Origin: Bacteroidota bacterium
GTDB taxonomy: Bacteria > Bacteroidota > Bacteroidia > Cytophagales > Cyclobacteriaceae
Assembly (NCBI GenBank): GCA_024280115.1
Contig: JAJRQT010000087.1
Span: 1 to 64,000 of the forward strand
Length of the DNA stretch: 64,000 nt
Reading direction: 5' to 3'
The notes under the pieces were generated by a model. That model worked only from the letters and a program-made list of their open reading frames with translations. It had not been told where the DNA came from and made no database searches. A program made the position numbers and the translations under genes. Positions 6,844-24,103 of this stretch are shown one piece after another (position 1 is the stretch's first letter; each line of letters opens with the position of its first letter).

Positions 6844-9834
6844 CTACTTCCATAAACTCATGGTTTTTATGCTTACCGGCCCCAACAATCCAGACTCAAT
6901 CAACGGAACCTGTGCCCATGGAACACGGGTTTGATCACCGGGTAATATTCCCTTTGTTGCAATGATAGTTCGAGAAATATTCGAATTGGTATAATTCCCG
7001 CCAGTAATTGCATCTCCTGTTAACCGGTTCGACCATGTATTTGCAACTTCGATGACCAGCTTATTTTCCCCCGATATTATGATTTCTGTGACATCAAAAG
7101 TATAGGGTAAGGTCCACGCTATTCCCAGAGGTTTGTCATTCAGCCAAACTTCACCAACTTTTGATAAATCACCGAGGTCCAAATAAATTTTCTGGTTATC
7201 ATGTGTATTCGCTTTTATATCATATTGAAAACTTTTTTTATAAGCGGCAGTACCCGAAAAATATTTAACTCCTTCTATTTCTGAAGTTGTCCAGGAAGTT
7301 AATTCGGGCAAATCTATTTTTTCTGGGGCTCCCCAATTTTCAGGAAAAAACAATTCCCAGCCACCTTCCAAGGTTTTGGAAAGAATAGTGTTGTGTAGGA
7401 CTTTCGATTGGCCCCGGCCTTTTAATTCAATGTCGCTATCTTCCAAAAACAGAATTCCGTCTTTAGTAAACGCTAAAAGTGGTGGGTGTTGGCCATCAAC
7501 GGTAATTTGAGAATAATGTCGTTGAGGATCTCTTTTTCGCATCACAATTAATTGTGAACCATAGGGTGCCAACGTGATGGGCATGCTTATATGCTCTTCA
7601 TTCTGATTGTAAATTACGATTGGAATAATTTCACCAGAAACCGGATCCCAAATCTCCGGAACTTTGTTTTGCTGTCGAAAGCTGCATTCGCGCGAAATCC
7701 ATTCGTCTGAAGAGTTGCTGATAAAATAGAAATCGAGCTCATCTTTTTTATAATGAATAAAATCCAGGAGATATGATTCACTATCCGGATAATTGAAGTC
7801 AGGAGAAACATGCAGGCCATTCAACATATCTATCGGAGTTCTTCCCGAAATGATTTTGCCTTTTTTATCGGAGGCATCCGCCCAAAGTTTATTGATCAGG
7901 CTTCTACCATCATTTTGCGATAATGGTGAATTTCTAATTTCAGCAGTTTTATTTGGTTTTTCACCAAGGATAATGGCGCCTTTATCAATCAATTCTTTGA
8001 GCTTGATTAAAACATCCGGATTAATCGCTTCTTCGTTTTCCAAAGTCAGCAAACTGAACTCCGCTCCATTTGACAAAAGGAGCTTCCCGTTTTTTACCGT
8101 GAGGTTATTTAACAGGATGTCGGTATTTATAACTTCATAATCATAGCCTGGCCCAACACTAAAATGAGCATTTTTAGGTGTAGCAGAGTTTGGTATTTTA
8201 TCGCCGTAATACCAGAGCACATCTGCCACAAATTCTGTTTGCTGAAAAACTGATGAAAGCCGTGTTAAATAATTGATAAAGGGCTTAACTTTTGGCCACC
8301 AAACACGCTTGTCATTAAAATGAGTGCCCGCATGATATACGTACCCGGGAAATCCTGAACCTGTGATATTATGACTAAATCCATGAAATACCATGCGGTT
8401 CATCCCTTCACAAAAAGCCCGGTCTCCAAATGGCTTCATATCAAAAGGACCTTCCTGCCAATGCTGAAAAGAGGTAAATGCCTCTTCTTCAACAACTCCT
8501 TTTTCATAAATGTGTGATGCCGCCGCAACTTCCTTTACTACACGCAGTATATCAATACTGTCTTTTCCGTTACTATCCTCATAATACCTGGAATGATTTA
8601 TCCAAAATTCACCTCTTGGAATATCCAAAGCGCCAAGCGCCTTCAAAGGTTCTGCAGGGCCGTTGTAGAGCGGATATCCCGGGCCACCAGCTTCACAATT
8701 AATTTGCAACCCATAACTGTTGCAAAGTTCCTTCGCATTTTTGTATAAATTATTGATCATTAATTCCGATAACGTTTTTTTGAAATCTGATTGAATTTTT
8801 GTTGTGATTTCAGGATTAAACAATTCAGGGTTGAAAAGAGAAGGTATAAATTTTGAAATATCATATCCATTTACTTTTTTAAATTCTGATACCAGAGTCG
8901 ATGTCCAGACGAATCCGCATGCTTCATAACTTGCCAGATAGAAGCTTTTTAAAGCTGTATTTCGGAAGTCGCCTAAAACTGGCTTCAGACGATTTATAAT
9001 ATGCATTAAATGAGTTCGAACAGCAATCGAATCAAAATGATCAATCGTCAAACCTCCTGAAAGTGGACTGGGAAGCACCAACTGCTGCCCCGAATTAGAG
9101 CAGACATACCGATGAATTTCCCAATTACCGGAAGGAGCTTCCCAATTAAGAATATCTTTTTCGGCGTCAAAAAAACGACTGATATCGATTACTTTAGCAG
9201 TGTCAAGTGTGTTTTTTATTGTATTTGCGGCAAGGGCTAAAATGGCTATTTCTTCATAATATTCGGGTTTGCCATTTTCTCGATATGAAATCATTGCTTT
9301 GTCATTTCCGCCGACTATTGAGGATTTCGGGAAGTTGATTTCAGGAAATGGAACATTGATGCTTTGTGTTGTCGAATTGTCTTTGATCATCGTTTTTGAA
9401 AAGTAAAGCGATTTACTACCGTGTTTTGCCTCGATCCAGCTTCCTCCTGCATTCCAGCTACTTGCCAAATTTAAACCAACAGTCAAATCGAGTTTCCCTG
9501 CCAGATCGATTACGTATTTTATTATTTGCAATGACTCGTCACTTAAAAAAGCAGGTCCTCCAGGAATCATCGTATCTTGTTTTGGAACTCCTATTTCAAA
9601 AAAGTCAAAGCCTCCAATTCCGGCTTCTTTCATGGCCAGTAGTTCTTGCTTTGCCCTGACAGTATCAATATTTCCATTAAGGCACCACCAGTAAACTTTT
9701 GGTTTTGCGCTTACTCCAGGATTTAAGAAACCCGCTTTTATTGTTTCATATGTATCCTGGTTTGGCTCGTTGGTTTCACACGAAAATTGAAAAAATCCTA
9801 ATGCTGCAAGAAGTATTAATACAGGTGTTTTCAT
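6844..9834 (-). CDS. GH106-like alpha-L-rhamnosidase lipoprotein
   Basis: This 996-residue exported enzyme resembles GH106, which removes alpha-L-rhamnose from plant or algal polysaccharides with inversion. A lipoprotein signal ends at Cys19 (FQFSC). The N-terminal block FLNPGVSAKPKVYWWCLNGN, followed by AGIGGFDFFE, is characteristic of the family, and large insertions follow as usual for this roughly 1,000-residue group. The C-terminal 150 residues form a galactose-binding-like beta-sandwich (LGDLSKVGEVWLNDKPLG, NKLVIEVANTWSNRL). It shares a strand with the sugar isomerase and MFS transporter upstream, suggesting deoxy-sugar release and uptake. Rhamnosidase activity is inferred from the family. 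Confidence 0.82.
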   Translation of the reverse strand: MKTPVLILLAALGFFQFSCETNEPNQDTYETIKAGFLNPGVSAKPKVYWWCLNGNIDTVRAKQELLAMKEAGIGGFDFFEIGVPKQDTMIPGGPAFLSDESLQIIKYVIDLAGKLDLTVGLNLASSWNAGGSWIEAKHGSKSLYFSKTMIKDNSTTQSINVPFPEINFPKSSIVGGNDKAMISYRENGKPEYYEEIAILALAANTIKNTLDTAKVIDISRFFDAEKDILNWEAPSGNWEIHRYVCSNSGQQLVLPSPLSGGLTIDHFDSIAVRTHLMHIINRLKPVLGDFRNTALKSFYLASYEACGFVWTSTLVSEFKKVNGYDISKFIPSLFNPELFNPEITTKIQSDFKKTLSELMINNLYKNAKELCNSYGLQINCEAGGPGYPLYNGPAEPLKALGALDIPRGEFWINHSRYYEDSNGKDSIDILRVVKEVAAASHIYEKGVVEEEAFTSFQHWQEGPFDMKPFGDRAFCEGMNRMVFHGFSHNITGSGFPGYVYHAGTHFNDKRVWWPKVKPFINYLTRLSSVFQQTEFVADVLWYYGDKIPNSATPKNAHFSVGPGYDYEVINTDILLNNLTVKNGKLLLSNGAEFSLLTLENEEAINPDVLIKLKELIDKGAIILGEKPNKTAEIRNSPLSQNDGRSLINKLWADASDKKGKIISGRTPIDMLNGLHVSPDFNYPDSESYLLDFIHYKKDELDFYFISNSSDEWISRECSFRQQNKVPEIWDPVSGEIIPIVIYNQNEEHISMPITLAPYGSQLIVMRKRDPQRHYSQITVDGQHPPLLAFTKDGILFLEDSDIELKGRGQSKVLHNTILSKTLEGGWELFFPENWGAPEKIDLPELTSWTTSEIEGVKYFSGTAAYKKSFQYDIKANTHDNQKIYLDLGDLSKVGEVWLNDKPLGIAWTLPYTFDVTEIIISGENKLVIEVANTWSNRLTGDAITGGNYTNSNISRTIIATKGILPGDQTRVPWAQVPLIESGLLGPVSIKTMSLWK

Positions 9835-9850
9835 TGTTATTGAAAAAAAA

Positions 9851-10348
9851 TTAGTGTTGTGGGAAAATTTGGTTTAATTGAAATAATGGGTAGAGTGGAT
9901 TTTTTAACCACAGAGGTAACAGAGTTTGACTACACAGAGATAACACAGAGTTAATATCCCTGCCCTCCGGCAGGCGGGCATTTACCACACGTTTAATTCC
10001 ACTTTTTAATTGCAAGACATTAAAATTGATTAATAATCCCAATCTGCTTTTTGCCAGTTTAAGATATGTTAGTGTTTGCGCCAAATGAATGTCGTTAAGT
10101 GCATCTACTGATTTAATTTCTACAATGATGCTTTTTTCAACAAAGAAATCAGCACGATATCCACATTCGAGTTTTACTTCTTCATATACCAATGGCAATG
10201 GTTTTTCTTTTTCAGCAAGTAACCCGCTTTTTACCATTTCATAATACAGGCAGGCCGTGTAGGCAGATTCCAGCAATCCTGGGCCTAATGCTTTATGCAC
10301 ATTTATTGCGCACCCTATAATTTTTCCAGTAATATCATTTTCTTTCAT
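9851..10348 (-). CDS. GxxExxY protein (PD-(D/E)xK nuclease-like) with repeat-encoded C-terminal tail
   Basis: This 165-residue protein of the GxxExxY family carries the name-giving motif GLLESAY (Gly24, Glu27, Tyr30). It also has the PD-(D/E)xK-like core Asp67 ... Glu77-Ile-Lys79, so it has the residues of a nuclease fold; the cellular role of the family is unknown. Family members usually stop soon after the GIKRVVN strand (Asn123 here). This frame instead runs on for about 42 residues (ARLPEGRDINSVL...) through a GC-rich palindrome and an ACAGAG repeat array, so the tail is probably not ancestral. Inverted ACAGAG arrays flank the domain-coding part on both sides. It interrupts an otherwise sugar-related gene series. 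Confidence 0.8.
   Translation of the reverse strand: MKENDITGKIIGCAINVHKALGPGLLESAYTACLYYEMVKSGLLAEKEKPLPLVYEEVKLECGYRADFFVEKSIIVEIKSVDALNDIHLAQTLTYLKLAKSRLGLLINFNVLQLKSGIKRVVNARLPEGRDINSVLSLCSQTLLPLWLKNPLYPLFQLNQIFPQH
9907..9950. repeat. ACAGAG array, left arm of the GxxExxY cassette
   Basis: ACAGAG units occur four times in 44 bp, starting with ACCACAGAGGTAACAGAG (9907-9924). The first 18 bp are an imperfect inverted copy of 10381-10398. The GxxExxY reading frame passes through this array. Confidence 0.6.
9959..9974. repeat. GC-rich REP-like hairpin inside the GxxExxY reading frame
   Basis: CCTGCC-CTCC-GGCAGG forms a 6-bp perfect stem with a 4-nt loop, followed by GCGGGCA. It encodes the LPEG residues just after the conserved end of the GxxExxY domain. 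A degenerate relative may lie near 55627-55650. Confidence 0.5.
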
Positions 10349-11960: not shown

Positions 11961-12140
11961 ATAATGATAGAATGCTATAATGATTTAATGAATTAATAAA
12001 ATGTAATACAATGTCGTTTAGTTAAGAAATTTATTGTATTACCTCTCCCTTCACCCTCTCCAGAGAGGGATAATAGGAGCTTAACTAAACGACATTGAAA
12101 TGAAATATCGCATTATCTCATTACCACATTATCTCATTCT
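11961..12140. repeat. Inverted 8-bp-phased AATG arrays around an 89-bp element
   Basis: Left arm 11961-11992 is four 8-mers of the form NNAATGNN (ATAATGAT, AGAATGCT, ATAATGAT, TTAATGAA). Right arm 12109-12140 is four inverted 8-mers (CGCATTAT, CTCATTAC, CACATTAT, CTCATTCT). Between them lies the 89-bp element at 12009-12097. The right arm supplies the last codons and stop of the MFS transporter gene. Confidence 0.6.
12009..12097. mobile_element. 89-bp MITE-like element, copy 1
   Basis: The ends are an 18-bp perfect inverted repeat: CAATGTCGTTTAGTTAAG at 12009-12026 and its complement at 12080-12097. The core holds a smaller hairpin (CCCTCTC ... GAGAGGG). A second copy of identical length is at 19670-19758. 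No coding capacity. No clear target-site duplication is visible. Confidence 0.7.
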
Positions 12141-16414: not shown

Positions 16415-16738
16415 ATGAGGATACTTGAACCATATAAAAACTATTTCTGGGATGTTTACAATCCTTTGAGACAGAATGTAAAAGATAAAATTGATTATGT
16501 CTTACAGATAGTTATATCAGTTCAGCGCATCCCCATCAAGTTCTTCAAGCATCTTGAAGATGGGATTTATGAAATTAGAATCGAAGCAAGTAGTAATATT
16601 TATCGCATATTTACTTTCTTCGATGACAATAAACTGGTGATATTGCTGCATGGTTTTCAGAAGAAAACACAGAAAACACCACGAAAAGAAATAGAAAGAG
16701 CAAAAAAAATGAGGAAAGATTATTATGAAAACAAATAA
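16415..16738 (+). CDS. RelE/HigB-type toxin (phage Gp49-like)
   Basis: This 107-residue basic protein has the ParE/RelE toxin fold as seen in Gp49-like HigB toxins. The core VISVQRIPIKFFKHLEDGIY followed by EIRIEASSNIYRIFTFFDD matches the conserved strand that carries the catalytic or contact Arg residues, and QKKTQKTPRKEIERAKKMRK is the usual C-terminal helix. Such toxins usually cleave mRNA at ribosomes. It overlaps the antitoxin start by 14 bp, so the two are translationally coupled, toxin first. Structured repeats lie on both sides of the pair. Confidence 0.87.
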   Translation: MRILEPYKNYFWDVYNPLRQNVKDKIDYVLQIVISVQRIPIKFFKHLEDGIYEIRIEASSNIYRIFTFFDDNKLVILLHGFQKKTQKTPRKEIERAKKMRKDYYENK

Positions 16739-17024
16739 TCCAAAAACAATAAATGATCTTTTTGACCAAAAATATGGTAAAAAAGGTAGTCGAAATCGTG
16801 AAGATTTTGAGCGAAAATCCGAGGCCTATATGGTAGCGGAACTGGTAAGAGAGTCACGCAAGAAAGCCCATTTAACCCAACAGCAGTTAGCAGAAAAATT
16901 GAATGTAAAACGTACTTACATATCAAAAATTGAAAGGGCTTCAAGTGATGTACGGATATCTACACTACGAAAAATTATTGAGAAAGGATTAGGTGGCAAA
17001 TTGAACATTAGTGTTGAATTATAA
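16725..17024 (+). CDS. HTH XRE-family antitoxin (HigA-like)
   Basis: This 99-residue protein has a helix-turn-helix of the XRE/Cro type at about residues 40-90 (KAHLTQQQLAEKLNVKRTYI, SKIERASSDVRISTLRKI). The N-terminal 35 residues are basic. It partners the upstream RelE/HigB-like toxin, neutralises it and most likely represses the shared promoter. The 14-bp overlap and matched sizes support a HigBA-type type II module. After its stop the strand carries no gene. Confidence 0.88.
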   Translation: MKTNNPKTINDLFDQKYGKKGSRNREDFERKSEAYMVAELVRESRKKAHLTQQQLAEKLNVKRTYISKIERASSDVRISTLRKIIEKGLGGKLNISVEL

Positions 17025-17268: not shown

Positions 17269-18141
17269 TTATTTGCTTCCCAATTGAAATGTCCTTGAAA
17301 TATTAAATCCAAAACGGATGTCTCCATCCCAAAAATTATCTTTTGTGTCCGTAATAAATCCCTTTTCAAAGGTAGGCCTGGAATTTGTGAAATGAAGCTG
17401 AAAAACATGTCCACCGGTCTCAATATCAACACCAATTCCAACTACATCATAATTTTGAAAAGATTCAATCGGGTTAAGCCTGTAATAATATTCCCCGGTC
17501 AGCGCAAGACTTCGTGTTATTTTATAACGAAAGGCTCCACCGAGATAAAAAATATCATTGTTATCGGTGGATTTTGGCACGACATTTAAATGAACCATTC
17601 CGGGCATTAGCTGGAAGGTAAATTTTTGACCGAATTTCCGTGAGATCAGTAACTCATGTGTGAATCCCAACCGGTTGGCGGTTGATAAAGGTTCGGAAAT
17701 CTCATTTGTGGGCAATGCTAGGCTGGAAAACCAAACCATGGTTACCGGAAAATTCTCAGCTCCTGATTTTTGGCGAAAGAACTTCCATTTCACATAACCA
17801 TCATACGTCTTTTCATAGGTACTCCTGCCAATCCCCAAATTGAATTGATCGGAAAGGCCATATTCAAATCCAAGTCGCGTATTGGCCTGGTCTAGTCCAA
17901 AGAATTCCTGAAATCCTGAACTCACAGGTCCAAAGCGATGATAAATAAGGAAATCGAGTTCTCCTTTATTTTTGGTCTTAGTCGAATGGCCATTGATTAT
18001 ATGTGTCCCTTTAAAAGCTGCGGTAATATATTTTACTTCTCGCTTTTCATCTTCTCCAAGCAAATCCATTAAATCATCTTGAGCCAGGACAGGATTCCAT
18101 ATAACTGTCAGCATGAGAAGTATTAAAAATTTATTTTTCAT
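17269..18141 (-). CDS. DUF5777-type outer-membrane beta-barrel protein
   Basis: This 290-residue protein has a signal peptide (FLILLMLTVIWNPVLAQ) and then an acidic linker (DDLMDLLGEDEKREV). A run of amphipathic strands follows (TAAFKGTHIINGHST, FLIYHRFGPVSSGFQEFFGL, RLGFEYGLSDQFNLGIGRST), ending in an outer-membrane-type strand. This order and motif set match DUF5777 barrels of Bacteroidota, whose function is unknown. The ATG at 18141 overlaps the YceI gene by 11 bp, so the two are coupled. It is the last gene of the ECF-CHRD-cytochrome-YceI series and may be the outer-membrane component of that system (inference). Confidence 0.78.
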   Translation of the reverse strand: MKNKFLILLMLTVIWNPVLAQDDLMDLLGEDEKREVKYITAAFKGTHIINGHSTKTKNKGELDFLIYHRFGPVSSGFQEFFGLDQANTRLGFEYGLSDQFNLGIGRSTYEKTYDGYVKWKFFRQKSGAENFPVTMVWFSSLALPTNEISEPLSTANRLGFTHELLISRKFGQKFTFQLMPGMVHLNVVPKSTDNNDIFYLGGAFRYKITRSLALTGEYYYRLNPIESFQNYDVVGIGVDIETGGHVFQLHFTNSRPTFEKGFITDTKDNFWDGDIRFGFNISRTFQLGSK

Positions 18142-18667
18142 AGAGCTTATATTCAATATTGACAGTAACCTCAATTTCTTCGGCAATTTTTTGAAACATC
18201 AATTGAGGCACCTTAATTTTGTAGTCAATTAATTTAACAATAAACACACTGTGAATCAGCACTTTCCCATCAATGAAATCTAAACTCCCAGGCACCCGGA
18301 TATTTTTTTTCACTCCATGAATTTCCAATGCTCCTTCCGCCCAGGCTTTTGGATTGCGTTGCTCAATTTTATAACCCGTAATCTTTCCTTTGAAGGTAGC
18401 TTTTGGGTATTTATCTGATTCCATATATTTTTCATTGAAATGCTCCTGCATCAGGGATTTTTCAAATTCAAAGGATGTCATGGGTACTGAATATACAATC
18501 TGACCACTTTCACTATCGAAAATGCTATTTACATTTTTGTTTATAGCCTTGATATTTTCCAGCAGTTCCTCCGAATAAAAGGTAATTGTCCCACCAGAAG
18601 ATTTATATTGTTGCGCTATTGACCAATGAGATAATAGTAGAAAAATTAATACAAGTACCCTTTTCAT
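18131..18667 (-). CDS. YceI-family periplasmic lipocalin-like protein
   Basis: This 178-residue protein has a signal peptide (VLVLIFLLLSHWSIAQQ). The YceI motifs appear in order: GTITFYSEELLENIKAINK, GQIVYSVPMTSFEFE, HFNEKYMESDKYPKATFKG and GALEIHGVKKNIRVPGSL. YceI proteins bind polyisoprenoids or quinone-like lipids in a beta-barrel. The ATG at 18667 is chosen because it begins the signal peptide; the longer frame adds 27 non-family residues. It overlaps DUF5777 downstream and follows the SprB-cytochrome gene by about 115 bp, so a quinone- or lipid-linked role in an envelope electron-transfer system is a reasonable inference. Confidence 0.85.
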   Translation of the reverse strand: MKRVLVLIFLLLSHWSIAQQYKSSGGTITFYSEELLENIKAINKNVNSIFDSESGQIVYSVPMTSFEFEKSLMQEHFNEKYMESDKYPKATFKGKITGYKIEQRNPKAWAEGALEIHGVKKNIRVPGSLDFIDGKVLIHSVFIVKLIDYKIKVPQLMFQKIAEEIEVTVNIEYKLYEK

Positions 18668-18782
18668 GATTGAAGTTATTATGTGGTTTGGCAATAAATT
18701 ATTTGTACGAACAATAGTAATCACTGAACATGGGATAATTATTTTCATGGATTATACCGAAGTCAGAAGGACTATAGAAATA

Positions 18783-19556
18783 CTAATTATCCAATCCCCC
18801 ATCATCAACCCAGCAGGCGATCAAATCGATTTGTTCCTGTGTTAAAGAGCCGCCACCGGTAGGCATACTTTTATTTTGTGTTCTGGTTTTAATATTATCT
18901 TTATTGTTCTGAATATTTTCGAAAATCCTGAAATCAGGAAATTGAGAGCCACCGTGACATCCTGTGACCGCGCAATTATCCATTATTATTGCATCAATTG
19001 ACTTCGAATAGGAAACTCCAGTCGGAATGGCTTCCTGTAGTACGAATGAACAACCATTCTGGTCGGTGACCAAAACCGAGTGATCTCCGGAAGCTAAATC
19101 AATAAATTCATTAGATGATTGGAACGCTCCATTGTCAAGGCTGTATAGATAAGGAGCAACACCATTAATAGCACTAACGGTCAGCACGCCCTGCATCGTG
19201 TTGCATCCTGAAGGAGATGCTATTGCATTAGCGATTACACCATCTTTACTCAATACAACAAATTGAGATTGGCCCGAGCATTCATTTGCATCCACAACTG
19301 TCACTTGATAATTTCCTGCCGGAAGCATCTCAAACACATTGTCTGCCTGTGAGACATTATTAATCAAATATTGATAAGGCGCCATGCCTCCACTGGCCTG
19401 TATGGTAACAGATCCATTATTTAGACCACAATCTGCATTCGTAACAACTGTTTCAATAGAAATTGGAAATTCATTACAATCCACAGTAATCTCATCAATA
19501 CTCAAATAGGTACAATTCGTCAACAGTAGAAGTATATAAATAAAGGATTTTCTCAC
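18783..19556 (-). CDS. SprB-repeat lipoprotein with C-terminal c-type cytochrome-like domain
   Basis: This 257-residue lipoprotein has lipobox LTNC (Cys15). Two SprB-like repeats (about residues 25-105 and 106-175) show the C-x-G ... NGxxVxAxGGxxPYxYxxxN pattern (DCGLNNGSVTIQASGGMAPY; GVLTVSAINGVAPYLYSLDN). The C-terminal 80 residues contain NCAVTGCHGG, a widened heme motif (C-x4-C-H rather than CxxCH), then MPTGGGSLTQEQIDLIACW, where the Met would be the sixth ligand. Such domains occur in PSCyt1-like cytochromes. The combination suggests a surface or periplasmic electron carrier. Heme attachment to a four-residue spacer is uncertain. Confidence 0.72.
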   Translation of the reverse strand: MRKSFIYILLLLTNCTYLSIDEITVDCNEFPISIETVVTNADCGLNNGSVTIQASGGMAPYQYLINNVSQADNVFEMLPAGNYQVTVVDANECSGQSQFVVLSKDGVIANAIASPSGCNTMQGVLTVSAINGVAPYLYSLDNGAFQSSNEFIDLASGDHSVLVTDQNGCSFVLQEAIPTGVSYSKSIDAIIMDNCAVTGCHGGSQFPDFRIFENIQNNKDNIKTRTQNKSMPTGGGSLTQEQIDLIACWVDDGGLDN

Positions 19557-19581
19557 AGAATTAATTGTTAATTAGAATAAA

Positions 19582-19654
19582 AAGGGCATCCTAAACATGT
19601 GATCACAACACCAAAACCAACTAAATTTATGAAACTGTATGTTTAGGCGCCCTT
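19582..19654 (-). terminator. Long-range hairpin with U-run upstream of the SprB-cytochrome gene
   Basis: AAGGGC plus CCTAAACAT (19582-19598) pairs with ATGTTTAGG plus GCCCTT (19639-19654), separated by about 40 nt. On the minus strand the 3' arm is followed by TTTTTATT, ending about 20 nt before the cytochrome ATG. It could end the CHRD transcript or act as an attenuator in the leader of the downstream genes. Confidence 0.45.
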
Positions 19655-19669
19655 ATTTTTTTCTTTACC

Positions 19670-19758
19670 CAATGTCGTTTAGTTAAGAATATTTTTGTCT
19701 TGCCTCTCCCATCACCCTCTCCCGAGAGGGATAATAGGCGCTTAACTAAATGACATTG
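19670..19758. mobile_element. 89-bp MITE-like element, copy 2
   Basis: Ends at 19670-19687 and 19741-19758 are an 18-bp inverted repeat with one mismatch (CAATGTCGTTTAGTTAAG type). It has the same 89-bp length and the same CCCTCTC/GAGAGGG core as the copy at 12009-12097. It lies just after the CHRD gene and beside the hairpin at 19582-19654. Confidence 0.7.
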
Positions 19759-19774
19759 CTTCCTGATTTTTCAA

Positions 19775-21727
19775 TTAATTGCTATTACCCCCAATATCGC
19801 CATTGGTCAATATTGAAGCCAAGTTCGCTGCACTTTCATGAACCTGGGCATAACCATCAAAGGCTATCAAGTCACTGTAAGTAATCTCAGTGTCATCATT
19901 CATTTTCGATATTGACGTCATGCTCATCCCTGTAGAGCCATCAACATTATTCAATGTAATTGCTACACCTCCGGGAGCCGCCACAGAACCGTTGTGTATG
20001 TGTGAGGGATGATCTCCTCCATCGCTAGTGCCCATAAGTGATAGTGTGATTAAAGTGAACCCATTTTTTCTTTCTGCGAAAGTAACTGTACCACTTATAC
20101 TCGAAGAATTCTGCTCATTCATAGTATAATCCACTGAAGTACCTGTAAGTGCATTTTGTCCTATGTCACCCTGTGCAATCAAGGTTCCTAAATCAGCTAC
20201 ACTATTATGGACATTGATGTACCCGTTAAATTCAATCAACTCTTCATAAGTTATGGCAGTCTGATCATTCATCTCACTGATACTTGTCATGCTCATTCCT
20301 GTGGCTCCGTCAACTTCCGATAAATCAATTGCAATTCCTCCTCCTTCTGCTGCGGTATTCATGTGAATATGAGCAGGATGAGTACCTCCATCACTTGTTC
20401 CAGCTAACATTATTGTCACTAAAGTTGCTCCACTTTTACGCTTCTCAAATTTAGCAGAGCCGTTTATATTAGGATTAGTTTTAGAATTAAGCGTGTACAT
20501 TTCAGAATCACCGGTCAGTTTATTCCTTCCAATATCACCACGTGCAATTGGTATAGCTATTTCTGCTAAACTTTTATGAACCTGTACATAGCCATTATAA
20601 TCTTCCCATTCCGAGTAAGTAATTGCGGTTCCATCCTTGAGTTCTTTCACATTCGTCTGACTCATACCTGTTGCGCCATCTACATTATTTAAATCAACCA
20701 TAATTCCTCCTCCTTCTGCCATGGTATTTGCATGGATATGGGCAGGATGATCACCATCGGCTGGTGTTCCGTCTAATTTTATCGTCACAAGTGTTTGTCC
20801 ATTCATACGCTCACTAAAAGTAACCTTACCACTTATCCCTGCTACATTGGCCTCAACCAAATCGTAATCTTCAGAATTTCCGGTTAGTTTATTTTGTCCG
20901 ATATCACCTCTCGCGATTGGCGTCCCTAAGTCTGATTCACTATTATGAACCTGCACATACCCATTAAAATCTTCCCATGCCGAATAAGCAATTGGAGAAT
21001 CATCAGCCAACTTCGACACACTGGTTTTACTCATACCTGTCGCACCATCTACATTATTAAGAGTTACCACAATTGAGCCTCCTTCGGCAACTGAATTTAA
21101 GTGTACGTGTGCAGGATGATCTCCTCCATCTGAAGTACCGGCCAAAACTATAGTAACTAAAGTTTCTCCATTCGTACGCTCACTGAAAGTTACCTTTCCG
21201 CTAACTCCAGGCACCTTAGCTTCGAACAATTCATAAACCATTGAATTGCCGGTAAGGGCATTTTTTCCTACGTCTCCCTGAGCGATTAATATCCCAAGTT
21301 CTGATGCACTTTTATGCACATTGATATAGCCGTTAAATTCAATCAATTGATCATAGGTAATGCTAGTGCCATCATTCATTTTTACCACATCCGTCACGCT
21401 ATTACCAGAAGCATCTACATCGGTAAGATCTATTGCAATGCCTCCCCCTTCAGCGGCGGTATTTATATGGATGTGCGCAGGATGATTACCTACTCCCCCA
21501 TTAAGCGATAAAGTTATCCTTGTACTCTTGTCGGTAAGTTCTTCAAATTTGGCCGTACCTGAAACCGCTGATATCCCAACCGCTGAAAGTGTGAATGTTT
21601 CAGACCTTCCTGTTACTCCGATAGGCGGGTTGGGATCATCATCGTTGTTGTCACAACTCGATATCACAAAACCACCTAAAACAAGTAGAATTGCTAACTT
21701 TGAAAACTTTTTAATCATCTTTTTCAT
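19775..21727 (-). CDS. Lipoprotein with five tandem CHRD domains
   Basis: This 650-residue lipoprotein has lipobox SSC (Cys25) followed by an Asn/Asp-rich linker. The rest is five tandem units of about 123 residues (roughly 41-162, 163-285, 286-408, 409-531, 532-650). Each carries HPAHIH or a close variant, GGGI-type turns, FNGYxxVHxS and a closing GDIGxNxLTG. This is the chordin-like CHRD domain pattern. The repeated His cluster suggests metal binding, but bacterial CHRD function is not established. Units 2-3 and 1/4 are most alike, implying recent internal duplication. It sits 36 bp downstream of the TM-barrel gene in the ECF operon. Confidence 0.85.
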   Translation of the reverse strand: MKKMIKKFSKLAILLVLGGFVISSCDNNDDDPNPPIGVTGRSETFTLSAVGISAVSGTAKFEELTDKSTRITLSLNGGVGNHPAHIHINTAAEGGGIAIDLTDVDASGNSVTDVVKMNDGTSITYDQLIEFNGYINVHKSASELGILIAQGDVGKNALTGNSMVYELFEAKVPGVSGKVTFSERTNGETLVTIVLAGTSDGGDHPAHVHLNSVAEGGSIVVTLNNVDGATGMSKTSVSKLADDSPIAYSAWEDFNGYVQVHNSESDLGTPIARGDIGQNKLTGNSEDYDLVEANVAGISGKVTFSERMNGQTLVTIKLDGTPADGDHPAHIHANTMAEGGGIMVDLNNVDGATGMSQTNVKELKDGTAITYSEWEDYNGYVQVHKSLAEIAIPIARGDIGRNKLTGDSEMYTLNSKTNPNINGSAKFEKRKSGATLVTIMLAGTSDGGTHPAHIHMNTAAEGGGIAIDLSEVDGATGMSMTSISEMNDQTAITYEELIEFNGYINVHNSVADLGTLIAQGDIGQNALTGTSVDYTMNEQNSSSISGTVTFAERKNGFTLITLSLMGTSDGGDHPSHIHNGSVAAPGGVAITLNNVDGSTGMSMTSISKMNDDTEITYSDLIAFDGYAQVHESAANLASILTNGDIGGNSN

Positions 21728-21763
21728 GTTAATAAAATTTATATGGTTAATAATTAATTGTGA

Positions 21764-23074
21764 TTATTTATTTCCGCGTAGTTTATATTTGTTCAATCGG
21801 ATGCCTGTGCGCAGACCAAAACTTCTCAACTCTACTTTGCCATGGCCCACACCTGTCAATGGAAAATTTGCATATGGACCTACCAGAAGGCTCCATTTAT
21901 TATTGAGTATATACTCGTAAGAAACCGCAACATTTAAAATACCAAACCAATACTGGTTTTCATTATTCCCTCCCCACCAACTCACTAAATCGGGGTCTTT
22001 CGAAGCATACTTATACCAATAATTTTCTTTCAATAAAAACCAGCTTGATAAACCTCCGTGAAATACTATGGAACCTTTTTTGCTGACAGGAAGATAGTAC
22101 GACAAGGTAACCGGTACATCGAGAATCCGACAAATTGCGTTCGTACTGTCCGGAACCACTCCGTTCGTCCAAAAACCTTTTGGCGGTGAATACTCTCTAC
22201 CTTTTGCCGAATATTTCTTTTCTGATAAATTCACACCAACGCCAATGCTCAAGCGCTCAGTGATAAAATACTCGCCGGAAATACCCAACCGCAATACGGG
22301 CTTACCCCATTCAGAAGCTTTTGTGGTACTGATGTCCAGCCCCCCAACCAAACCAAGTGTATAAAACCGCTTTGTAACTATCTCTTCTTGAGTTGGTATA
22401 ATGATCTTAATCTGCTGCGATCGATCATAATCTGGTAATACATCAATATCCTGCTCTGTACTTTCCGGCATAATAGGCATTATCAGGGCGGGAATTATTG
22501 CCTGATTGGAAACGAGCTGGCCATCAGTCGGGGTATTATTTGAAAGACTTCCCCAAACCGCAGTTGGATCAACTTTAGAATAGGAATTTTTATTTATTCC
22601 CCGTGCAGTATTTTGATGTTTTTCATTTATGGTGTTTTTAGCTATTAGTTGTTTGCTTTTATTTGTAGCGCCTTTGGCTTTTAATGATTCTGGTCCATGC
22701 TCAGACACCGGTATTTTCGCAGTACTTTCCGGATTGGTTTCTACAGATGAAACAGCCCTGTCCTGATTGTTTATATCTTCAGATATTATTTTCTTTTCGG
22801 ATGGAAGTAAAGTCTCCAGGGTTTGAGTATTAACTGTAACTTTCTCAGAATCTGAGGGGTCTATAAGCTGAAGATACGTGAGAAAAAGCAACGATGAGAG
22901 CAATACGCCTACGGCAATCCAAAAATATTTGCCGAATACAAAACCCGAAGCAGCTTCTGCGGCATCTAGTTTGGCCTCCATTTTTACCCAGTCTTCTTCC
23001 CGAAAATCATACTGATCTCCTTCAGCACGATTCCTGAAAAAATTTACCAGGTTATCCTCTTCGTATTCTTTCAT
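21764..23074 (-). CDS. TM-anchored protein with C-terminal beta-barrel domain, likely partner of the ECF sigma factor
   Basis: This 436-residue protein has an acidic cytosolic head (residues 1-46, MKEYEEDNLVNFFRNRAEGD...), a single TM helix (about 47-66, YFWIAVGVLLSSLLFLTYLQ), a long polar linker (about 70-215), and a C-terminal barrel-like domain with LGISGEYFITERLSIGVGVN and LNVAVSYEYILNNKWSLLVG. This layout recurs beside ECF sigma genes in Bacteroidota, where the head plausibly acts as the anti-sigma part. Its start overlaps the sigma gene by 23 bp, so coupling is tight. Anti-sigma function is inferred from context. Confidence 0.75.
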   Translation of the reverse strand: MKEYEEDNLVNFFRNRAEGDQYDFREEDWVKMEAKLDAAEAASGFVFGKYFWIAVGVLLSSLLFLTYLQLIDPSDSEKVTVNTQTLETLLPSEKKIISEDINNQDRAVSSVETNPESTAKIPVSEHGPESLKAKGATNKSKQLIAKNTINEKHQNTARGINKNSYSKVDPTAVWGSLSNNTPTDGQLVSNQAIIPALIMPIMPESTEQDIDVLPDYDRSQQIKIIIPTQEEIVTKRFYTLGLVGGLDISTTKASEWGKPVLRLGISGEYFITERLSIGVGVNLSEKKYSAKGREYSPPKGFWTNGVVPDSTNAICRILDVPVTLSYYLPVSKKGSIVFHGGLSSWFLLKENYWYKYASKDPDLVSWWGGNNENQYWFGILNVAVSYEYILNNKWSLLVGPYANFPLTGVGHGKVELRSFGLRTGIRLNKYKLRGNK

Positions 23075-23627
23075 CAGCTTCTAAATAATCATTTAATATT
23101 TTTCTCATTTTCACCTTAGCCTTTGACAAATTCGATTTACTTGTTCCCGGACTTATAGAAAGCATTTCACCTATTTCTTCATGCGTATAACCCTCTATTA
23201 CATGCAGATTAAATACGGCTTGATATTGAGGAGACAATTGTTGTATCATCTCAACAACTTCTTTATGTCCAATATCTGAGCTTATGCTTTCATTGCTTCC
23301 GATATTATAAGCCTCCTCAATATTCAATTCCTTAAATCTTCCAACTTTCTTTTTAGTTGCATTGATTGATTCATTAATTAATATTCTCCTAAACCAGGCT
23401 TTAAACGGGTAGGAAATATCAAATTTTTTAATGTTGGAAAATACTTTCATAAACGCATCATTTAGTACCTCAACAGCCTCTTCCCTGTTACTTACATATC
23501 GAATGCAAATGCTCATGGCATAGCCATAAAAATCCTGATAGAGAAGTTTTTGTGCCTCCCTATTCTTTTTCCTACACCCTTTAATTAATTGTAAAAGGTA
23601 ATCGTCATCCGGTGGTTTTGTAGTCAT
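23052..23627 (-). CDS. ECF-type RNA polymerase sigma factor
   Basis: This 191-residue sigma-70 family protein has region 2 at about residues 25-95 (YQDFYGYAMSICIRYVSNRE, FMKVFSNIKKFD) and region 4 at about 125-185 (LSPQYQAVFNLHVIEGYTHE, EIGEMLSISPGTSKSNLSKA). The frame extends to a TTG, but the ATG at 23627 is the better start. No regions 1 or 3 are present, as expected for ECF. It leads the operon for the TM-barrel, CHRD and probably the downstream cytochrome/YceI/DUF5777 genes, which suggests an envelope or redox stress signal turns these on. Confidence 0.9.
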   Translation of the reverse strand: MTTKPPDDDYLLQLIKGCRKKNREAQKLLYQDFYGYAMSICIRYVSNREEAVEVLNDAFMKVFSNIKKFDISYPFKAWFRRILINESINATKKKVGRFKELNIEEAYNIGSNESISSDIGHKEVVEMIQQLSPQYQAVFNLHVIEGYTHEEIGEMLSISPGTSKSNLSKAKVKMRKILNDYLEADERIRRG

Positions 23628-24103
23628 CTTTAAAGCCAATACAAGTGGTAGTTATAAAGGGTTGCCTTGGCTTACCATTTTTTTGTCTTTATTGCCATTT
23701 CAATGGGAAAAACTATTTTTCATTTTCTCAAAAAACCTACCTGCAATGCGACAATGATACAATGCTTGAATGCTTGAATAATACAATTCGTAAACTATTG
23801 ATAATATGTAATTTATGACCGAGAATTATTTAATTCTCGCATTGAGGCATTCAATACTTCTCGCATTTATAAATTAGTTGAATAATCCAATGTTGTCATT
23901 ACCCATTAAGTGAGTGGAAGAACTATTTTTTTTATATGTGCATGACTCAAATTTAAGTTACTGTTGTAGAGAAATGAAAAATGGTGTTATTTTCCCATGA
24001 ATAAAAATGCCGAAATATCATTACTTACCCCTGTATATCATTGTATCCTCACAATTTTGAAAGTATTTTCGTTTTTATAAAAAAAACTAACAGACTCCAT
24101 ATC
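23628..24103. other. Divergent intergenic region with inverted AATG arrays
   Basis: No gene is seen between the ECF and GH3 starts. Left arm 23743-23790 is six 8-mers (GCAATGCG, ACAATGAT, ACAATGCT, TGAATGCT, TGAATAAT, ACAATTCG). Right arm about 23820-23867 is an imperfect inverted copy and contains the palindrome CGAGAATTA-TT-TAATTCTCG (23820-23839). Promoters for both flanking genes must also lie here, but I could not assign them. Confidence 0.55.

Follow-up and report, generated by a model that had tools for sequence, protein, structure and literature searches.

Das/Dma systems (EcfO/Reo), described in Bacteroides and Phocaeicola, combine a gene for an extracytoplasmic function (ECF) sigma factor with an adjoining gene for a protein made of helices, a transmembrane (TM) segment, a disordered tether and a barrel, with envelope genes downstream. 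So far as the available portions of these reports describe them, Dma proteins have this domain order and a neighbouring ECF21 sigma gene (PMC13088901), Reo or its like has the same layout (PMC13114119; PMC9308784), oxygen induces EcfO/Reo, and Reo reportedly reaches through every compartment of the envelope, release of the sigma factor by an outer-membrane event having been proposed (PMC13114119). A second relevant system is BcnA-LcoA of Burkholderia, a YceI-type lipocalin and a cytochrome b561 which, according to the accessible part of the source, protect against lipid peroxyl radicals (PMC9113575). Here we describe a locus in a stretch of 64,000 nucleotides (hereafter the window; positions 1 to 64,000 of contig JAJRQT010000087.1, GenBank assembly GCA_024280115.1) from a Bacteroidota bacterium of the Cyclobacteriaceae. 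Six open reading frames (ORFs) on the minus strand, at window positions 17269-23627, encode an ECF sigma factor, a TM-plus-barrel (Dma-like) protein, a CHRD protein, an SprB-cytochrome, a YceI protein and a DUF5777 protein. Judging from sequence comparisons, this six-gene set is a real module with a core that recurs in many Bacteroidota lineages, and the sigma factor, held by the Dma-like protein, seems to control an envelope redox gene set.

The sigma gene (23052..23627; open from TTG 23639, likely start ATG 23627) encodes a Das/EcfO-like protein matching sigma-70 regions 2 (Pfam E 3.8e-10) and 4 (E 4e-16). Its ORF overlaps that of the second gene (21764..23074), which is spaced from the CHRD gene by 36 bp; because genes were called as the longest ORF, some starts are wrong. 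The second protein has a weak Pfam match only, to OMP_b-brl_2 (E 3.2e-4, under the cut-off). Its AlphaFold2 (AF2) model, built from 16 sequences (mean predicted local distance difference test, pLDDT, 67.6; predicted template modelling score, pTM, 0.49), has helices at residues 6-17 and 26-70, a stretch at 71-230 with pLDDT mostly below 50, and eight strands at 237-430 (21785..22366), predicted to form a C-terminal outer-membrane beta-barrel; OmpA barrels were the top PDB matches of the model in Foldseek. In the N-terminus, W29 is invariant, and F13 and L36 are kept in at least 90% of the 16 rows. A sigma gene was recognised beside the Dma-like gene in 20 of 21 loci. This predicted anatomy makes the second protein a probable Dma-type anti-sigma factor that would join both membranes, its likeness to Dma1, Dma2 and Reo being one of layout. 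The regulatory layer as a whole, that is, the sigma-Dma pair, its anatomy and the candidate promoter described below, is well supported by sequence comparison and structure prediction.

The downstream genes of the core encode a lipoprotein-like cytochrome (18783..19556), a YceI protein with a signal-peptide-like start (18131..18748, likely start ATG 18667) and a DUF5777 barrel (17269..18186); the last, from its likely start ATG 18141 as read from the sequence, overlaps the YceI end by 11 bp. The cytochrome carries two SprB stretches (Pfam E 3.6e-14), a haem motif, CAVTGCH (C-x4-C-H), at residues 195-201 (18954..18974), and Met231. It stays below the Pfam cut-off for a cytochrome (Cytochrome_CBB3, E 0.011, 16.5 bits vs 27). 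An alignment of 11 chosen family members shows the two Cys and the His of the motif in every row, spaced as C-x4-CH or C-x2-CH, and a Met-Pro follows the motif in 9 of the 11. Among 158 family members of at most 450 aa, C-x4-CH was found in 89 and C-x2-CH in 94 (some have both, and 4 have neither), with M[PY] 15-70 residues behind the haem motif in 144. A two-haem relative (locus L121; L, G and C numbers are our designations for loci, genomes and contigs) passes the PSCyt1 model, and the genome to which the window belongs has genes of the cytochrome c assembly type (PF01578, 4 matches).

The YceI protein (PF04264) scored 55.8 bits against a cut-off of 23.7 (E 8.9e-15, model positions 39-149 of 150), and the DUF5777 protein (PF19089) 304.5 bits against 23.1 (E 6.2e-91, positions 1-247 of 247). 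The predicted structure of the latter (pLDDT 91, pTM 0.82) has twelve long strands and resembles KdgM (Z 17.7), FapF (17.6), NanC (17.4) and COG4313 (16.7), NanC being the first match in Foldseek. Judging from the fold alone, DUF5777 would be a small pore or transporter; identity to KdgM/NanC, FapF and COG4313 is 8-13%, and likeness of fold does not establish function. Conduits of the MtrB type are much bigger, and such a conduit is not favoured for DUF5777, which is a small barrel with none of them among the matches listed.

An initial annotation made from the letters of the window had proposed these six genes, their order, shared strand and families. The ORF list and Pfam agree with it on all of the first three, and Pfam matched sigma-70, CHRD, SprB, YceI and DUF5777; two features stay under Pfam cut-offs, namely the cytochrome domain, which finds its support in the 11-row alignment, and the barrel of the Dma-like protein, which finds it in the AF2 model. 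The c-type haem-like motif and Met segment that it had pointed out also held up, with Cys/Cys/His in every aligned row, and we predict a monohaem cytochrome. It had missed the anti-sigma look of the second gene, whose product would join both membranes, and the promoter.

DUF5777 is present in 45 of the 59 genomes of our first sample and in 259 of the 295 sampled genomes of the class. Of the 137 non-redundant DUF5777 loci that we compared, 60 belong to relatives, 76 come from named records and one is that of the window; neighbours were counted by a same-strand run rule with a 400-bp limit. The 80 named loci are no random sample because they were chosen by peptide pattern and similarity to the query. 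The window's own DUF5777 copy and the fragment G035 were not refetched, L152 was dropped for want of a DUF5777 gene call, and three duplicates were discarded: L140, which is the same contig as L038, L093 (a copy of L058) and L118 (a copy of L065). A cytochrome accompanied DUF5777 in 110 loci, YceI in 108 (immediately adjacent in 103) and both in 89, while a small protein (PF12869 OB-fold in the examples tested) was found in 45 and none of the labelled families in 8. Among the 60 relatives alone, YceI was immediately adjacent in 40 and a cytochrome present in 46, with neither in 3. Because control genes more than 4 genes away had a same-strand YceI neighbour in just 11 of 942 cases, against an adjacency of 103/137, and the window's own 7.2-Mb genome has 3 YceI matches, the association goes beyond chance. 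A Dma-like gene was present in 21 of the 137 loci, and all 21 also have the cytochrome and YceI. In a class-wide sample of 17 strong Dma-like loci outside the window's genome, 8 lead straight into YceI-DUF5777, 3 of them with a cytochrome between.

A candidate promoter of the sigma gene, AGGCAACC-N16-TGT(A), lies at 23641..23667 (minus strand). The motif was spotted by eye in the same sigma-Dma upstream regions in which it was later counted, and one of the 37 pairs was dropped from the count, its upstream region being cut off. Exact GGCAACC occurs within 200 bp upstream in 22 of 36 sigma-Dma pairs vs 15 of 2168 other ORFs, or 3 of 676 ORFs having a free upstream region; for GGCAACC-N16-YGT the counts are 15/36 vs 2/2173 and 0/676. 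In the window's genome, AGGCAACC-N16-YGT has 10 sites (2 for a backward control), of which 3 stand at gene starts, namely those of the window's sigma gene, a sigma gene on contig C7 and a PepSY lipoprotein gene beside the latter; the remaining 7 are inside ORFs. In G001, a genome of the window's genus, the YGTA form has exactly two sites, one before a sigma gene and the other before a gene in which CHRD units are fused to a cytochrome. The motif evidence is strong in this case and in the placement of sites ahead of sigma genes. A sigma-70-type promoter scan gave 25 matches vs a shuffle mean of 23.4, that is, no excess.

The window's genome has a second sigma-Dma-cytochrome locus (L204, contig C7, 6872-9955), with neither YceI nor DUF5777 nearby; its anti-sigma frame contains one TAA, and the adjoining PepSY lipoprotein gene is preceded by a promoter motif of its own.

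The working model that we propose, to which we give a chance a little short of even, is a self-contained envelope response operon in which outer-membrane stress would free the sigma factor and a short envelope redox chain would be made. The sigma-Dma pair with its anatomy, the candidate promoter and the conserved trio of cytochrome, YceI and DUF5777 are the parts supported by comparison and modelling. By analogy with Dma/Reo, the cytoplasmic helices of the Dma-like protein would bind sigma, one TM helix would cross the inner membrane, a disordered tether of ~160 residues would cross the periplasm, and the 8-strand barrel would sit in the outer membrane, where damage or a ligand might be felt directly and sigma freed. 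Freed sigma would then read AGGCAACC-N16-YGT before its own gene and drive the operon; promoter sequences suggest that in some genomes it may also drive distant secreted redox or metal-binding lipoproteins. YceI, as discussed for BcnA (PMC9113575), may carry quinone or oxidised lipid through the periplasm and exchange electrons at the outer membrane with the monohaem cytochrome lipoprotein, and DUF5777 might serve as a channel or anchor giving access to the outside. At the outer membrane, these products would probably serve to neutralise peroxides, radicals or redox metals. The genes around the module fit envelope electron transfer or redox stress, and we regard a redox role as the likeliest because the partners in relatives include peroxidase, superoxide dismutase, Rieske, cupredoxin and P460 proteins (a P460/Haem_bd protein is found in L129).

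Several observations weigh against this model. Beyond the window's genome, the YGTA form occurred at 34 sites in 23 further genomes vs 22 for the backward control, six genomes having none, so that single motif sites are weak evidence. The context of 30 of the 34 was examined, the four without loci being left out: 17 are inside genes, 2 are near no start, and 11 precede a gene. Four of these 11 genes look unrelated or unclear; the other seven are three sigma genes, the G001 fusion gene and genes for a Lipoprotein_15 protein, a cupredoxin (G132) and a GSDH-type protein. In nine of the 17 Dma-like loci sampled, YceI-DUF5777 does not follow; two of the nine adjoin Lipoprotein_15 genes, and among the other seven L218 adjoins a Rieske gene. 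Five loci of the order sigma-Dma-YceI-DUF5777 (L205, L212, L213, L214 and L215) have no cytochrome. The outputs known from Bacteroides and Phocaeicola, in the available text of the papers, are NigD proteins, vesiculation and longer O-antigen rather than the module described here (PMC13088901; PMC13114119; PMC9308784). In four loci, namely the second DUF5777 copy of the window's genome (L079), L088, L089 and L091, cytochrome and DUF5777 stand among redox genes of the multihaem and NrfD type, without YceI. L079 and L091 have, by Pfam, a 4Fe-4S protein, NrfD and multihaem cytochromes; L091 also has 8-haem and 6-haem proteins (CXXCH counts) and a CRP-type regulator, and L079 an EB_dh protein. This setting suggests respiration rather than protection, and the L079 and L091 clusters are possibly an undescribed respiratory system.

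It is because such clusters place cytochrome-DUF5777 among further redox genes that we keep respiration as a rival. The cytochrome-DUF5777 core would then be a unit of extracellular electron transfer or anaerobic respiration, induced by sigma-Dma when needed, with the barrel allowing electrons to pass between carriers in the periplasm and either a cytochrome at the surface or a small acceptor. NrfD, the multihaem cytochromes and the 4Fe-4S protein, which has a Tat-like start, speak for it, as does the fact that 5 of the 17 Dma-like loci have a Rieske gene in or close to them (by Pfam in 3, by motif in 2). Against it, small porins and transporters are the nearest matches of the DUF5777 model, a single haem motif and no recognised quinol oxidase are found in the operon of the window, and the G001 gene behind the same promoter motif (L184) adjoins peroxidase and superoxide dismutase genes. 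We consider this explanation unlikely, if some way from remote. The pair, in any case, may work in envelope electron transfer more widely, as these clusters suggest.

Another alternative is that the operon serves chiefly in a response of the outer membrane or in vesiculation, like those of Dma1 and Dma2, with the redox-like genes as passengers. Vesicles of Bacteroides thetaiotaomicron are under the control of Dma1 and Dma2, according to the accessible part of the report (PMC13088901), but 116 of the 137 DUF5777 loci have no nearby Dma-like gene by the run rule (19 of the 137 are cut by a contig end). Because the trio also occurs without a nearby Dma-like gene, it likely has a function of its own, and we give the passenger explanation very little credence.

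The trio also occurs beside other regulators. Before the module in L036, L040 and L155, genes for a response regulator and a histidine kinase of the propeller type stand beside another YceI gene (by Pfam in L036 only), so that the same output may here have another sensor. The flavobacterial loci L102, L106, L120, L129, L141 and L172 have a LytTR regulator whose N-terminus includes a membrane-like stretch (by Pfam in L102, by profile in the others), and L102, L141 and L172 also have a divergent OB-YceI-DUF5777 set.

The CHRD gene of the window (19775..21727) encodes a lipoprotein-like protein with five CHRD stretches (PF07452, 63.9 bits vs 24.1, E 3.2e-17), each with an H-P-[AS]-H-x-H motif (residues 82, 204, 327, 450 and 573). 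The slot between Dma-like and cytochrome genes, which it occupies here, was empty in 16 of 22 Dma-like loci; L033 has an OB protein in it, L132, L142 and L161 have longer proteins, which are Lipoprotein_15 (by Pfam in the first two, by phmmer in L161), and L036 is cut by a contig end. A Lipoprotein_15 search of the window's genome gave no match, though the control also matched nowhere. As a core member CHRD was rejected: by the run rule it accompanies DUF5777 in 1 of the 137 loci, the window itself, to which can be added L097 (order CHRD-YceI-DUF5777, beyond the 400-bp limit) and L185 (another genus, order Dma-CHRD-cytochrome on a short contig). A CHRD match was found in 44 of 98 genomes, and in the 19 CHRD loci fetched CHRD lies apart from the module save in L185, L097 and the G001 fusion. 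This fusion (L184, 8408-10261) joins four CHRD units to the same kind of cytochrome and adjoins CCP_MauG and Fe/Mn-superoxide dismutase genes; it sits behind the same promoter motif. From these comparisons, CHRD is thus an optional member, yet one linked to this cytochrome. Of the suggestion in the initial annotation that all six genes form one system, what stands is that the sigma, Dma-like, cytochrome, YceI and DUF5777 genes recur together in many Bacteroidota, with CHRD as an optional part. The search of other Bacteroidota for co-occurrence that it had suggested likewise found the core conserved and CHRD mostly separate, though fused to the cytochrome in G001. CHRD is not exclusive to this sigma kind either, because in L197 (G019) at 7285-10010, on one strand, a CHRD gene follows a different ECF gene and a gene for a 282-aa barrel-less protein; this protein is possibly an anti-sigma factor, and ECF systems of more than one kind may make use of CHRD.

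In the proposed response operon, the His-rich CHRD repeats, or Lipoprotein_15 in some relatives, might bind metal or act as a sacrificial surface layer. The same proteins allow an explanation by sensing or handling of surface metal (copper or iron), in which CHRD, Lipoprotein_15, cupredoxin and PepSY would bind the metal, the cytochrome would oxidise or reduce it and DUF5777 would pass it. The five H-P-[AS]-H-x-H motifs and the G132 cupredoxin gene behind the same promoter motif are consistent with this, but Pfam recognises no metal transporter or chaperone among the products of the six genes, and CHRD, in 2 of 141 loci, and Lipoprotein_15, in 17 of 141, are missing from most. We hold this explanation to be improbable.

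The gap between the CHRD and cytochrome genes is 218 bp and has no site of the sigma-type motif; it may, as the initial annotation suggested, divide the set into two transcripts. It contains a dispersed palindromic repeat of ~90 bp (19670..19758) with ~40 other matches in the genome, mostly units of ~90 bp and including window 12009-12097; it may be a REP (repetitive extragenic palindromic) or MITE (miniature inverted-repeat transposable element)-like element and looks like an insertion. Beside it is a second long hairpin (19582..19655, minus strand), which closes with a run of Ts when read along the transcript and is, from its sequence and fold, a possible terminator or attenuator; the consensus terminator scan missed it because its loop exceeds the limit of the scan. 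Beside the operon, at 16415-17024 on the plus strand, lie a Gp49 gene (PF05973) and, after it, an overlapping HTH_3 gene (Pfam), which look like a toxin-antitoxin pair of the HigB/HigA type.

Dma/Das and EcfO/Reo are already known, and the new part, for which we found no description, is the output module. The literature searched (titles and abstract openings) yielded no account of it and no paper with the name DUF5777; the primary Dma1 and EcfO papers were outside this search, and overlap is possible. The window output of monohaem cytochrome, YceI and DUF5777 (plus CHRD) differs from NigD and from the DUF4858/DUF4943 proteins that the available part of PMC13088901 gives for Dma2. It shares with BcnA-LcoA the genetic linkage of a YceI-type lipocalin to an envelope haem protein, and differs from it in that the haem protein is c-type and lipoprotein-like, the set includes an outer-membrane barrel as well, and sigma-Dma would be the regulator. 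A broader proposal, possible though rather doubtful, is that an undescribed Bacteroidota-wide outer-membrane redox module, with YceI as the carrier, the cytochrome at the surface and DUF5777 as the channel, would deliver reducing power to the cell surface, switched on by a protein connecting the outer membrane to sigma, with CHRD, Lipoprotein_15, Rieske and cupredoxin as swappable parts.

The findings bear on a stated gap, since a class I anti-sigma domain is reported nearby for just 6% of Bacteroidetes ECF sigma factors in the accessible text of PMC7406223. They suggest a new output for signalling of the Dma/Reo kind, and DUF5777, widespread as it is in the class, acquires a testable role through its link with YceI, a cytochrome and a specific promoter.

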